Shown here: positions 3,940 to 42,066 of the stretch, piece by piece | Layout of the letters: every line of letters starts with the position of its first letter | Numbering within the stretch: position 1 is the first letter of the stretch | Assembly (NCBI GenBank): GCA_040223695.1 | Contig: JAVKFU010000013.1 | Location: 1-59,320 of the forward strand | Direction of reading: 5' to 3' | Length of the DNA stretch: 59,320 nucleotides | Source of the DNA: Deltaproteobacteria bacterium | GTDB taxonomy: Bacteria; Desulfobacterota_D; UBA1144; Nemesobacterales; UBA2774 | The notes under the pieces: model-generated | Told to the model about the DNA's origin: nothing | The model's input: only the letters and a program-made list of their open reading frames with translations | The model's database searches: none | Translations under genes and position numbers: made by a program

Positions 3940-6006
3940 GTGGCTTTAATGGACAGCGAGGAATCCAGAAAGGGAAAGAAAACTTATGATCTCAAGATCA
4001 TAAAATGGCTTTACAGCTTTACCGGCCCCTACCGCTTTTTTATGGCCCTCGCGCTGTTGTTTATGGTGCTCACGGCCCTGCTCGAGCTTTCGGTGCCCTA
4101 TATCGCTAAAATCGCTGTCGATAAATACATATATCCCTCCTGGAGAATAGCCCGCTTCGAAGACAACGATACGGATATAAAGTTCGAACAAAACCTCAAA
4201 GAGAACTATGCGTCCCTGATCGTACCTCTCGGCGAAGATTCATACCTTGTCGATATGTCCGAACTGGACTCGACGGACAGACATAATCTAGAGAAGCTCG
4301 GCATGGTGACCGAGGAGAGATATCTGGTCATCGATCCGGACGAATTCGAAGGGGCGAAGTCCGGCAGGGTGACGGGAATAATTAACGCAAGCCCGGACGT
4401 ATTTAAAAAGACCGGCAGCGTCTATTACGCAAGCTACGATTCCCTCGATCAGTTGAGCCGGAAAGACCTCCTGTTAATCAGGGGAGACGAGATAAGCGAA
4501 GTAATTAAACTTGCGGCGGTTTTATTCCTGTGTCTCGTCGGAATATTTATCTTCAGCTCCCTTTTCACCTACCTTCTTAACTATTCCGGCCACAAGATTA
4601 TGCATAGGATGAGGACAGACGTATTTTCGCACATACTCAGCCTTCCCCAGAGCTTTTTCGATAAGAACCCCGTGGGACGACTGACAACAAGAGTTACGAA
4701 CGACGTAAACGCCATAAACGAAATGTACACATCTGTAACGGTACAGTTCTTCAAGGATGTGCTCGTGGTTTTAGGCGTTTTTATAGTCATGTTTTATATG
4801 AATAAAAGTCTCACGTTATTCGTCGCTCTCTTCACGGTGCTCATGTTTCTCTTTGCCGTCATGTTCAGAATGAAGCTCAAGACGGTTTACAGGGACGTTA
4901 GGCGTTCCATCGCCAAGCTGAACGCTTTCGTTCAGGAAAGCGTAAGAGGGATTGTGCTCATAAAACTCTACAACAGAGAGATGGAGAACTTCGAGAAGTT
5001 CAAGGAAACGAACAGCGAGAACTTCAGGGCCAATATGGACCAGCTATGGGTATACGCTACATTCAGACCGTTTATAGAATTCACGAGCGTATTTACCGTA
5101 GCTTTTATTCTCTGGTACGGCGGGCTTAAAGTCATGAGGCTTGATCTTACGCTCGGAGCCCTCATCGCGTACCTATACTATGTGAGGATGCTGTTCAGGC
5201 CCATTATGGAGCTCGCTGAGAGATATAACATATTTCAGTCCGCCTCAGTGGCATCGGAAAACCTTTACGACCTTGTGACCGTTGTGCCGGAGCAGCGGGA
5301 GGGTATAAAAGAGTCTGATGTGCGGGGAAGACTCGAATTTAAAAACGTATGGTTTTCATACAACGACAAGGAATGGGTATTGAAGGACGTGTCGTTTAAG
5401 ATCGAGCCGGGAGAGACCGTTGCGCTCGTGGGACTTACGGGATCCGGTAAAACGACAATAGTCAATCTGATTCTGAGGTTCTATGACGCTCAGAGGGGGC
5501 GAATACTTTTCGACGGGGTGGACATTAAGGACTTAAGCCCCGAATTTTTAAGGAGGAATATATCGGCGGTATTCCAGGACCTCTTCTTGTTCGCAAAGAA
5601 TGTATCGGACTCCGATTCCGGCGGGCCCTCACGCGGTGTAAATATAGATGAGCTCACCGGTAACGGCAGTAACAAATCATCGGGGGAAAAGCAGCTTGTA
5701 TCTCTCGGGCAGGCGTTTTCCAAAGACGCGAATTTCCTTATACTGGACGAGGCGACCTCCAACATAGACGCGAGGATCGAGAGGGAGGTTCAAAACGCGC
5801 TCAGAAACGAAACACACGAGAGGACTACGTTAATAATCGCTCACAGGCTTTCGAACGTAAGACACGCCGACAGGATAATGGTTATACATAAAGGGGGGAT
5901 TTCGGAAATCGGCACACACGCGGGCCTGCTTAAGAAAAAAGGCATTTACTATAATCTCTACCAGCTGCAAAACGAGATACACCGCTTTTCTCTATTGGCG
6001 GATTAG
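3940..6006 (+). CDS. ABC exporter half-transporter, MdlB-like, with shortened ATPase helical domain
   Basis: A fused membrane/ATPase exporter half of 688 residues. TM1 is at about 33-60. An unusual soluble insert follows at about 68-185, then the remaining helices (188-212 onward) and an ATPase domain from about 445. Walker A is GLTGSGKTT (about 498-506), the Q-loop is VFQD, Walker B is FLILDEATS with the catalytic Glu, and the switch His is in IIAHRLS (about 634). The signature is degraded (KSSGEKQ instead of LSGGQ), and only about 34 residues separate the Q-loop from it, some 25 fewer than usual. The GTG start at 3940 has AGGGAG 8 nt upstream. The substrate is unknown. The half at 44476-46194 has the complementary defects and is the likely partner. 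Confidence 0.9.
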   Translation: MALMDSEESRKGKKTYDLKIIKWLYSFTGPYRFFMALALLFMVLTALLELSVPYIAKIAVDKYIYPSWRIARFEDNDTDIKFEQNLKENYASLIVPLGEDSYLVDMSELDSTDRHNLEKLGMVTEERYLVIDPDEFEGAKSGRVTGIINASPDVFKKTGSVYYASYDSLDQLSRKDLLLIRGDEISEVIKLAAVLFLCLVGIFIFSSLFTYLLNYSGHKIMHRMRTDVFSHILSLPQSFFDKNPVGRLTTRVTNDVNAINEMYTSVTVQFFKDVLVVLGVFIVMFYMNKSLTLFVALFTVLMFLFAVMFRMKLKTVYRDVRRSIAKLNAFVQESVRGIVLIKLYNREMENFEKFKETNSENFRANMDQLWVYATFRPFIEFTSVFTVAFILWYGGLKVMRLDLTLGALIAYLYYVRMLFRPIMELAERYNIFQSASVASENLYDLVTVVPEQREGIKESDVRGRLEFKNVWFSYNDKEWVLKDVSFKIEPGETVALVGLTGSGKTTIVNLILRFYDAQRGRILFDGVDIKDLSPEFLRRNISAVFQDLFLFAKNVSDSDSGGPSRGVNIDELTGNGSNKSSGEKQLVSLGQAFSKDANFLILDEATSNIDARIEREVQNALRNETHERTTLIIAHRLSNVRHADRIMVIHKGGISEIGTHAGLLKKKGIYYNLYQLQNEIHRFSLLAD

Positions 6007-39747: not shown

Positions 39748-40827
39748 TCAGGGGGCCGCTGAATCCGGCTCGCTTTGGGCCTGCCCGACGAACTGCTTCA
39801 AAGGGCCGCGGGGGTCTATTAACCCCTCAAGCTCACTAAACGGTACATTAACAAAATAGGGTCCTTCGGCATAGGAGCCCACTGTATAAGGGGCGAAGGC
39901 AAACACCAAACCCGCCGGGGATAGCGCGAAAACCCCCAGTTCTTCCTCCTTGAAACTCCTAACCTCGCCACCTATGACCCAGCCCGCTTTCTGTTTTCTG
40001 AGGTCATTAATACACAACCCGGATAAGGTATCAATGAATTTTGAGTTGGGCAGGAAGAGGTCGGATAATTTCAACTGAACGGCCCTGCCGTCCTTGATCC
40101 AGTAATTCTTCGACGCAAAATAGGTGTTTCCGTGCGCCCCTCCGGAATATGAGAAGACCTCTCCAGACAGACTTAGCAGATCAGCGGAATAGTACTCGAT
40201 TCTGTAATCATAACTCTGCTGCCAGCCCGCAGCCGAGCTTTGGGTCATGAAGGATTCCTGCGCCTCCCCGACAAATTTATTCTGCGCGGAAAGCATGTCC
40301 TTCCGGAGGCCGTCGGATATATCGCGAAAAGCCTGAGAAGGGGACAAAAAGTATGGCACAGAAAAAGATGCCTCGATCAACGTCCCCTGACGGAGGGTCG
40401 AGAAAATGAAATCCGCAACCTTCTTGAGCTTAAAACCGAGAGAAGTCAGTCCGTTGGCCTTTGTCCATTCCCCCGAAAGGGTACCGAAGCCCGCGCCGTC
40501 AGAGGCGAGTTTTCCATCGAATGTTCCCGTTTTTTCGCCCTTTTCATCCTGCTCGACAATCGTAAAAGTCATGTTGTCTCTATTGAGTTTTCCATTCAGG
40601 GAAATAGGAATGCCGTTTTTATCGTAAATATATAGTCCCGTGATATCCTCCGATTCCACTATTAACTCCATCTGTATAGCGAGATTGTCCCCTATTGTGC
40701 CGACATAGTAATACCGCGCTTCCGAATCGCTCGGATCCTCTGCCGAGACAGTCGGAGATAAAAGGTAAAAAAACGGAGCAGCCAGGACGAGAGCCGCCGA
40801 TAATTTAACAATCGAGATTATTTTCAC
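39748..40827 (-). CDS. Exported DUF3298/DUF4163-type protein
   Basis: A 359-residue protein with a signal peptide (about 1-29, ending VSAED). The C-terminal half matches the PdaC/RsiV-like DUF4163-DUF3298 fold: EVFSYSGGAHGNTYFASKNYW is the DUF3298 signature, and AFAPYTVGSYAEGPYFVNVPFSEL closes it. The N-terminal part carries an unassigned beta-rich region (DGKLASDGAGFGTLSGEW). RsiV-type proteins bind lysozyme, but most members have no assigned function. Confidence 0.85.
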   Translation of the reverse strand: MKIISIVKLSAALVLAAPFFYLLSPTVSAEDPSDSEARYYYVGTIGDNLAIQMELIVESEDITGLYIYDKNGIPISLNGKLNRDNMTFTIVEQDEKGEKTGTFDGKLASDGAGFGTLSGEWTKANGLTSLGFKLKKVADFIFSTLRQGTLIEASFSVPYFLSPSQAFRDISDGLRKDMLSAQNKFVGEAQESFMTQSSAAGWQQSYDYRIEYYSADLLSLSGEVFSYSGGAHGNTYFASKNYWIKDGRAVQLKLSDLFLPNSKFIDTLSGLCINDLRKQKAGWVIGGEVRSFKEEELGVFALSPAGLVFAFAPYTVGSYAEGPYFVNVPFSELEGLIDPRGPLKQFVGQAQSEPDSAAP

Positions 40828-40913
40828 TTAACTATAATCCTTCGTTTCCGATAATGAAGCCGAATTTCTTTTCAACTAAATATTATCACAAATTATTGCG
40901 GAATTTCAGAAAC

Positions 40914-40933
40914 TGTCACACCGTAAAGTGACA
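40914..40933. promoter_or_regulatory. Inverted repeat, possible enhancer site for sigma-54 promoter
   Basis: TGTCAC-N8-GTGACA, perfect 6-bp arms, lying about 120-140 bp upstream of the -24 element at 41052. This is the usual distance for a bacterial enhancer-binding protein site. Confidence 0.45.
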
Positions 40934-40947
40934 ATAAACCGCAAATC

Positions 40948-40964
40948 ATGACTATATTTGTCAT
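40948..40964. promoter_or_regulatory. Second inverted repeat upstream of the sigma-54 promoter
   Basis: ATGAC-N7-GTCAT, perfect 5-bp arms, 14 bp after the first inverted repeat. Paired sites are common for sigma-54 activators, although the arm sequence is not the same as in the first. Confidence 0.35.
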
Positions 40965-41049
40965 AATATTCAGTTAATAAGACCGCTAATCAATTCACAA
41001 AATCCTCGTATTTTGAATTATATCAACGGGTTATGTCGATGACGAACAA

Positions 41050-41066
41050 TTGGCACGCATGTTGCT
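41050..41066 (+). promoter_or_regulatory. Consensus sigma-54 (RpoN) promoter
   Basis: TTGGCACG-CATG-TTGCT is a full match to the -24/-12 consensus, with GG and GC exactly 10 bp apart. The transcription start would be near 41077. It points right, away from the flanking leftward gene 39748-40827 and against suhB, so it does not serve an annotated gene. Confidence 0.78.
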
Positions 41067-41076
41067 AAAATGTTGA

Positions 41077-41220
41077 ATGACAGGTTATAAAAAGTCAGGT
41101 GAATCGGATTTGTGACGAGAACATCAAAAAATATAGATTATTGCAATAAAGCCATAACATATTCCCCATCCTCTAGGGGGTGAATCCTTGAAGAAATTCA
41201 GGGGTTCACCCTCGTATTTT
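41077..41220 (+). ncRNA. Candidate sigma-54-dependent small RNA
   Basis: About 144 nt between the sigma-54 promoter and a terminator-like hairpin. It contains no open frame of note. Both neighbouring genes run leftward, so a rightward transcript here would be independent. Near its 3' end, CCCC (41164-41167) can pair with GGGG (41176-41179) and expose the pyrimidine-rich loop ATCCTCTA, complementary to a Shine-Dalgarno sequence. That stem overlaps the terminator stem by two bases. Size and layout resemble Qrr- or CrcZ-type sRNAs, but no homology is claimed. Confidence 0.5.
41178..41220 (+). terminator. Strong GAAA-capped hairpin with T-rich tail
   Basis: A continuous 15-bp stem runs from 41178-41192 to 41197-41211 around a GAAA tetraloop (41193-41196), followed by CGTATTTT. 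Two of the pairs are G-U when read as rightward RNA but would be A-C mismatches on the other strand. The structure therefore fits a rightward transcript and is not simply the end of suhB. Confidence 0.65.
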
Positions 41221-41238
41221 AAAACACCCCTGTGTATG

Positions 41239-42066
41239 TCAAAGAGCCGGAGCTTTAAACCGGCCCCCGGATACGAGAGATAAAACATCAATCATTTCGC
41301 CGTGTATTCTTCCGTTTGAAGATAGGATCTCTTTTACATAGATACTGAATTTGCCGCCCGTAAAATCGGTGATTTTACCACCGGCCTCCTCTACAATCAA
41401 AACGCCGGCTGCAGTGTCCCAGGGATTAAGCCCAAGCTCCCAAAAGCCGTCGAACCTGCCGCACGCTACATAACAAAGATCAAGCGCGGCAGAACCGTCT
41501 CTCCTGACCGCCCTCGCCCTTCTTATAAAATTGGCAAAATGCTTAAGATTATCCTCAACCATCTTGTTATTCTCATGCACAAAACCCGTAGCCAGGTGAC
41601 TGTGCCCTAGGTCTTGAGAATCGGAGACCCTGATACCGTCCCTGTTTAACCGGGCGCCGCCGCCTCGCTCCGCCGTGAACAGCTCATCCTTAACAGGATC
41701 GTATACCAGTCCGGCCTCTACCATACCCCCGACCTCTAGCGCAATGGAGATTGAGAAAAACGGATACGCGTGCGCGTAATTTGTAGTCCCGTCGAGAGGG
41801 TCGATAATCCAGACATGATCGGAGTTCCTGGAATGCCGGCCCGATTCCTCGGCGAAAATGTCGTGCGAGGGGAAGCTGCGCTTAATGCGGTCTATAATGG
41901 TTCTCTCGGATAATTTATCTACTTCGGTGACGAGGTTATTTTTGCCTTTAAACTCTATTTCACCAATTTTTCCAAGCTTTTCTATGAGTATCTCGCCCGC
42001 TTCTCTGGCCGCCGCCTCTGCAATATCTAAATAGCTCACCTGTAACCCCTTAAACGCATTCTGCAA
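41239..42066 (-). CDS. suhB: Inositol-1-monophosphatase family protein
   Basis: A 275-residue Mg-dependent phosphatase. Metal motifs are FAEESG, WIIDPLDGTTNYAHAYP and LNPWDTAAGVLIVEEAGG. GSAALDLCYVACGRFDGF is the usual substrate region. It dephosphorylates inositol phosphate or a related sugar phosphate; SuhB also has a role in transcription antitermination in enterobacteria, which cannot be assumed here. Confidence 0.94.
   Translation of the reverse strand: MQNAFKGLQVSYLDIAEAAAREAGEILIEKLGKIGEIEFKGKNNLVTEVDKLSERTIIDRIKRSFPSHDIFAEESGRHSRNSDHVWIIDPLDGTTNYAHAYPFFSISIALEVGGMVEAGLVYDPVKDELFTAERGGGARLNRDGIRVSDSQDLGHSHLATGFVHENNKMVEDNLKHFANFIRRARAVRRDGSAALDLCYVACGRFDGFWELGLNPWDTAAGVLIVEEAGGKITDFTGGKFSIYVKEILSSNGRIHGEMIDVLSLVSGGRFKAPAL

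Follow-up and report, generated by a model that had tools for sequence, protein, structure and literature searches.

The spacer between an inositol monophosphatase family gene and a DUF3298/PdaC gene in a Candidatus Dadabacteria genome very probably contains the gene of a rightward, non-coding small RNA with a sigma-54 promoter, a reading that sequence comparison with relatives strongly supports. This reading can be widened: the RNA would be linked to PilSR and belong to a multi-copy RNA family not described before. Leaving the identity of the targets aside, we consider it probable that the whole chain holds, in which PilR and sigma-54 would drive expression of an RNA that represses its targets by pairing at ribosome-binding sites.

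The window, a 59,320-nt stretch of DNA, belongs to a 3.03-Mb, 23-contig assembly (G000) from the same family as the relatives that carry the conserved block of the RNA. An initial annotation had proposed an orphan sigma-54-controlled small RNA at this place. All of its element coordinates were verified against the window sequence (Table 1), and the open reading frame coordinates bear out its statement that both flanking genes run leftward. The full-consensus RpoN site that it described, TTGGCACGCATGTTGCT, does lie on the + strand and point right, and the predicted RNA length of about 144 nt fits the positions of the promoter and the terminator. The 59-kb window holds no other exact match to TGGCACN5TTGC; allowing up to one mismatch raises the number to three, against 1.9 expected. 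Finding one such site in 59 kb proves little by itself; this one is raised above chance because the site, the 25-nt block and the hairpin are all kept at the same position in five other genomes. The sigma factor and its enhancer-binding proteins are also at hand, rpoN being found in 16 of 16 genomes of the family and 14 strong sigma-54 activators in the window genome.

Table 1. Features of the small RNA locus and of sibling copies in the same genome (positions without a contig label refer to the window)
Feature	Position	Strand	Remark
DUF3298/PdaC gene	39748-40827	-	left-hand flank of the spacer
Spacer	40828-41238		between two leftward genes (inositol monophosphatase family and DUF3298/PdaC)
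Outer inverted repeat, TGTCAC-ACCGTAAA-GTGACA	40914-40933	.	possible second activator site, or unrelated
Inner palindrome ATGACTATATTTGTCAT, ATGAC-TATATTT-GTCAT	40948-40964	.	likely PilR site (predicted), 87 bp before the sigma-54 site
Sigma-54 (RpoN) promoter, TTGGCACGCATGTTGCT	41050-41066	+	predicted transcription start ~41077
Predicted small RNA	41077-41220	+	~144 nt; from promoter and terminator
Invariant block, GCCAUAACAUAUUCCCCAUCCUCUA	41151-41175	+	identical in six genomes, three genera
Terminator hairpin, 17 bp, GAAA loop and T-rich tail	41176-41220	+	fold and covariation
Inositol monophosphatase family gene (PF00459)	41239-42066	-	right-hand flank of the spacer
Type C copies in the window genome (L184, L186)	C17:160573-160648 and C18:325604-325681	-	two copies; relatives L170-L189

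We searched the spacer by BLASTN against 60 relatives. Five genomes of the same family, from two other genera, gave matches, which were strong only to window positions 41151-41220 (83-91%). The sigma-54 site, the 25-nt block and the hairpin are thus kept in the same spacer in six Candidatus Dadabacteria genomes from three genera; this conservation of promoter and hairpin in relatives, together with the presence of rpoN, supports the reading as an orphan sigma-54-controlled RNA. The first 25 bases of the conserved region (GCCATAACATATTCCCCATCCTCTA) are invariant in all six sequences, and the orthologous copies examined adjoin the same two genes. A sigma-54 site lies on the same strand, 54-133 bases 5' of the block, in all six syntenic orthologues, while the DNA between site and block varies in length and sequence. 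The 5' part of the RNA is not conserved among orthologues, so that their predicted lengths range from ~80 to 180 nt. Persistence of the promoter and of the RNA 3' end while the intervening DNA diverges is what an RNA gene predicts, unlike a chance site. A copy in a seventh genome (G003) is flanked by the same genes; it has diverged, and its sigma-54 site, CGGTACGCAGCTTGC, is degenerate. A sigma-54-like site 5' of the copy in G021 (L025) was dismissed as chance, as the syntenic copies of other genomes have no counterpart to it. The same comparison speaks to whether the transcript might be the mRNA of a small protein. Every orthologue does have short open frames, but comparing these frames across orthologues revealed none in common, the 5' part cannot be aligned, and the invariance of the block covers every base instead of following codons, all of which makes such an mRNA highly improbable.

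About 110 bp past the promoter, the initial annotation had described a 15-bp stem with a GAAA tetraloop. This stem (GGGTGAATCCTTGAA-GAAA-TTCAGGGGTTCACCC, including two G-U pairs) exists and can be extended to 17 bp (41176-41213), with GTATTTTAAAA directly 3' of it. The T-rich tail attributed to it is present, if weak in this genome and stronger in relatives. The two G-U pairs had been taken as compatible with a rightward RNA only, and folding agrees: the + strand reaches -39 kcal/mol (z = -3.3, with 0 of 200 shuffles as good), whereas the - strand is not much better than its shuffles (z = -1.3) because the two G-U pairs turn into mismatches there. The stem also covaries among relatives. Across the six orthologues, both sides have changed in a compensatory manner in 3 of 17 stem pairs, and 98% of cells are paired, compared with 16-60% in slid registers. 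When 24 family copies were aligned, double changes appeared in 10 of 16 pairs, and doubly changed cells numbered 43, where shuffles gave 12.2 and slid controls no more than 9; this alignment was fitted to the covariance model and hence leans towards structure, yet its contrast with slid registers is still large.

We also weighed whether the hairpin could terminate the leftward inositol monophosphatase gene, the sigma-54 site being a chance match and no RNA gene existing. The hairpin begins only 26 bp past the stop codon of that gene, and the perfect stem of the copy L006 would fold on the - strand too, on which the covariance model also recorded matches of the stem. However, the stem has no T-run behind it on the - strand, where its version in this genome is mismatched; the sigma-54 site and its enhancer are kept in syntenic orthologues; and siblings of the RNA with the same seed adjoin unrelated genes. 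We therefore regard this explanation as very hard to sustain.

Two inverted repeats had been noted 5' of the promoter, and both are borne out at the positions listed in Table 1. Orthologue counterparts of the inner palindrome (TGACTATATTTGTCA) lie ~100-125 bp before the sigma-54 site; the outer repeat, with its N8 spacer, is not of the TGACN7GTCA type. We searched all 16 genomes of the family for TGACN7GTCA followed after 77-137 bp by TGGYAYN5TTGC, using the reversed pattern as a control, and obtained 28 matches, compared with 0 for the control. The palindrome alone (TTGACAACTTTTGTCAA, 3 mismatches) showed no excess over control, so that specificity arises only in combination with the sigma-54 site; combined in this way, the inner palindrome (40948-40964) qualifies as a specific candidate enhancer. 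A weight matrix built from the 24 non-RNA sites only scored the window palindrome above 300 of 300 shuffles and found the RNA enhancer in six of seven orthologues at 0-3 of 300 shuffles, with a weaker result for the degenerate G003 copy (10 of 300). As far as sequence alone can tell, the locus thus has the upstream NtrC-type activator site of sigma-54-dependent small RNAs. Enhancer-like palindromes were also seen at G000:C18:48244-48260 (L148, TTGACAAATTTTGTCAT) and G004:C55:3873-3889 (L149, TTGACAATTTTTGTCAT), in two genera and with the same neighbours, mechanosensitive-channel-like and response-regulator/PAS genes (named by eye); no sigma-54 site was found near either of them.

The genes downstream of each match to the combined pattern were then read, and Pfam was run on one representative of each. 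Apart from the RNA, the matches precede genes for a type IV pilin (N_methyl), a protein with the MshEN domain of pilus ATPases, a sigma-70-family factor and a subtilase (Peptidase_S8). Four matches lie in the window genome, before the pilin (C6), the MshEN gene (C13:110609), the sigma factor (C2) and the window RNA. The same genome carries a cluster (L191) in which genes for a T2SSE ATPase and a T2SSF (PilC-type) protein are followed by a PilS-type kinase, with the PilS transmembrane domain (PF25323), adjoining an NtrC-type regulator, the putative PilR (ORF 3941-5365). A candidate enhancer type is therefore common to the RNA and the pilin genes of a genome with a predicted PilS/PilR pair. The PilS domain occurs in nine genomes of the family, and these coincide fully with the genomes that gave enhancer matches; in the seven genomes of genus g2, neither the PilS domain, the enhancer pattern nor the sigma-54-type RNA was found. 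This match (9 versus 7) counts as a single phylogenetic contrast rather than nine, and one loss within one genus may account for it.

In other bacteria, PilR is an established activator of pilA, acting at a sigma-54 promoter (PMC2725144, PMC6058289). This precedent, the pilin and MshEN genes of the regulon and the co-occurrence with PilS strongly suggest PilR as the most likely activator of the RNA. It is unlikely that the RNA, though real and sigma-54-dependent, answers to another NtrC-type regulator. The genome does offer 14 strong activators to choose from, the palindrome is unlike the published P. aeruginosa PilR elements, and a sigma factor and a protease are among the regulon genes; against this, the pilin and MshEN genes belong to the regulon, and PilS presence tracks the enhancer in 9/9 versus 0/7 genomes. 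With PilR as the activator, sigma-54 RNA polymerase would transcribe the RNA rightward once activated by PilR, of the PilS-PilR pair, at TGACN7GTCA ~90 bp upstream. The RNA would then be made together with the type IV pilin, the pilus ATPase-type protein, an alternative sigma factor and a secreted protease. No PilR-controlled small RNA is reported in the titles or abstracts of the literature searched.

We further investigated copies of the RNA elsewhere with a covariance model (R2). Copies beyond the window type (type A) fall into syntenic groups. Type B, present in most genomes of the family, consists of GCCAUCAUCCUCCAWAGGG and a terminator beside a BtrH/DUF4872 gene; the window genome has one on the same contig as the window (C13:186917-186980, - strand; L041, L063), and the BtrH_N/DUF4872 neighbour recurs in several other genomes. 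Related copies in other families of the order sit beside a coaD/aminotransferase-type gene group or SDR genes. Type C has a doubled seed, UCAUCCUCCAUCCUCCUUUAA (CAUCCUCC), in an RNA of roughly 100 nt with a covarying terminator. Its strikingly conserved promoter is sigma-70-like, TTGACA-N2-TTAAGTAAAATACTTTATTTTTATT, with an internal AAGTA...TACTT palindrome. Type C copies often lie near an SCO1-like or rhodanese-like gene (named by eye) and form tandem duplicates in G004 and G014. Among 29 distinct sequences, nearly all of type C, 133 cells were doubly changed against 37.7 in shuffles. Type C is a strong candidate small RNA family in its own right.

Across 387 genomes searched with strict filters, every match at E ≤ 1e-5 fell within the order. 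Half of the 58 genomes of the phylum have a match at E ≤ 0.01, with family f8 giving weak matches only, which are not member-like, and genus g10 giving none. Rfam returned no match, whether for the window at the gathering score or for representative loci at E ≤ 0.5. The RNA family is lineage-restricted, multi-copy and absent from Rfam. Exact seed matches on contigs of viruses or other phyla were taken as chance. That unrelated loci hold siblings with a common seed is an argument for a trans-acting RNA.

In types A, B and C alike, the terminator stem is closely preceded by CAUCCUCY. The complement of this motif, RGAGGAUG, resembles a Shine-Dalgarno sequence, which fits the earlier proposal that a CU-rich segment could pair with Shine-Dalgarno sequences; the segment, described at the time as a loop, is rather a predicted unpaired linker 5' of the terminator stem. 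In the window RNA, CCCCAUCCUCUA has a mean unpaired probability of 0.88, compared with 0.46 for the whole RNA, and the means for the seed across orthologues range from 0.51 to 0.99 in the predicted folds, two orthologues having it about half open. In addition, the blocks of types A and B start with GCCAU, complementary to AUGGC, a start codon followed by the GC of a GCN codon. A comparable arrangement is known from the alpha-r14 small RNAs (NfeR1) of Rhizobiales, which are Hfq-independent, expose an unpaired anti-Shine-Dalgarno seed (CCUCCUCCC) in each of three hairpins and, for NfeR1, have no sigma-54 promoter (PMC10746234). Like these, the family has an unpaired anti-Shine-Dalgarno-type seed and sibling or repeated seeds. 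Unlike them, it carries the seed in the linker before the terminator, in one copy (two in type C), and has no Rfam match; the window RNA has one terminator hairpin and one CAUCCUCU linker, and no CCUCCUCCC. Pairing at ribosome-binding sites is the simplest reading, because the seed is Shine-Dalgarno-complementary as in the alpha-r14 RNAs, and we think it reasonably likely that the RNA represses in this way. It would expose the invariant CU-rich segment (GCCAUAACAUAUUCCCCAUCCUCUA) just before the terminator, and this segment would pair with Shine-Dalgarno and start-codon regions of mRNAs, lowering translation when the pilus programme is on. Siblings under other promoters, with the same CAUCCUCY seed, probably act on overlapping targets.

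As for targets, matches to a long antisense target (AGAGGATGGGGAATATG, ≤3 mismatches, six genomes) exceed the reversed control in several genomes. Nearly all of the 20 long-complementarity regions read lie inside or antisense to genes, and only one match, in the window genome (C15:465671), is at a start codon. A single long antisense target was rejected, as no recurrent one was found in the six genomes. Leaders of the pilus regulon mostly paired with the seed no better than shuffled sequences did; the best leader was that of pilA in the window genome (z = -2.9), a result not repeated in other pilin leaders. Hfq (PF17209) was not detected in the 16 genomes of the family, while control genomes gave matches.

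These results also bear on a rather unlikely alternative, in which the block of the PilR/sigma-54 RNA binds a protein or sequesters another RNA, as CrcZ does in the Hfq/Crc system, and pairs with no mRNA. Such a role would suit a fully invariant 25-nt block, which exceeds the usual seed length, and the failure to find a conserved long-complementarity target. It sits poorly with the lack of detectable Hfq in the 16 genomes, and with the fact that types A, B and C have only the Shine-Dalgarno-complementary CAUCCUCY in common, doubled in type C. Returning to pairing at ribosome-binding sites, we tentatively suggest that Dadabacteria may use lineage-specific, Hfq-independent sibling RNAs (A under sigma-54/PilR, B and C under other promoters) as a translation brake whose condition is set by the promoter, that of type A being the pilus state.

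Qrr (via LuxO) and GlmY (via GlrR) are sigma-54-dependent small RNAs under NtrC-type activators. CrcZ, under CbrB, is another (PMC8657755). The window RNA has the general features of this kind, a conserved sigma-54 promoter in genomes with rpoN, a predicted non-coding transcript and a covarying terminator with a T-tail. Like CrcZ/CrcY/CrcX, Qrr and GlmY, it has a stand-alone sigma-54 promoter, an upstream activator site, a length of ~100-180 nt and its own terminator, and like the Qrr and Crc RNAs it has several sibling copies. Unlike Qrr, CrcZ and GlmY, to which it shows no sequence relation and whose Rfam models it does not match, it apparently has PilR as its activator, siblings under differing promoter types and a host in which Hfq was not detected. 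The kind is thus known, an activator-controlled sigma-54 small RNA with an anti-Shine-Dalgarno-like seed, while the apparent novelty lies in the family, its host lineage and its wiring to the pilus. Synteny, covariation and a regulon with sharp limits here back an RNA family outside Rfam, from an uncultured and little-studied lineage. As Hfq appears to be lacking, the family could serve to test whether anti-Shine-Dalgarno riboregulation can do without its customary chaperone, and the siblings under different promoters open this idea to comparative testing.

If confirmed, a PilR-controlled small RNA would constitute a post-transcriptional arm of type IV pilus regulation. As in the PilSR/RpoN pilus regulons of Pseudomonas and Geobacter, a PilS/PilR-type pair is found with sigma-54 promoters before pilin genes (PMC2725144, PMC6058289); unlike in those regulons, a small RNA gene is included and a sigma-70-family gene lies under the same enhancer. 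A subtilase-family (Peptidase_S8) gene occurs under this enhancer in four relatives (L199, L201, L209, L220), and the pattern found none in the window genome. The sigma-70-family gene of the window genome, under a pilin-type enhancer and a sigma-54 promoter (G000:C2:1874-1993, - strand; L205), suggests a sigma cascade, and has orthologues at L202, L204, L206-L208, L217 and L222.
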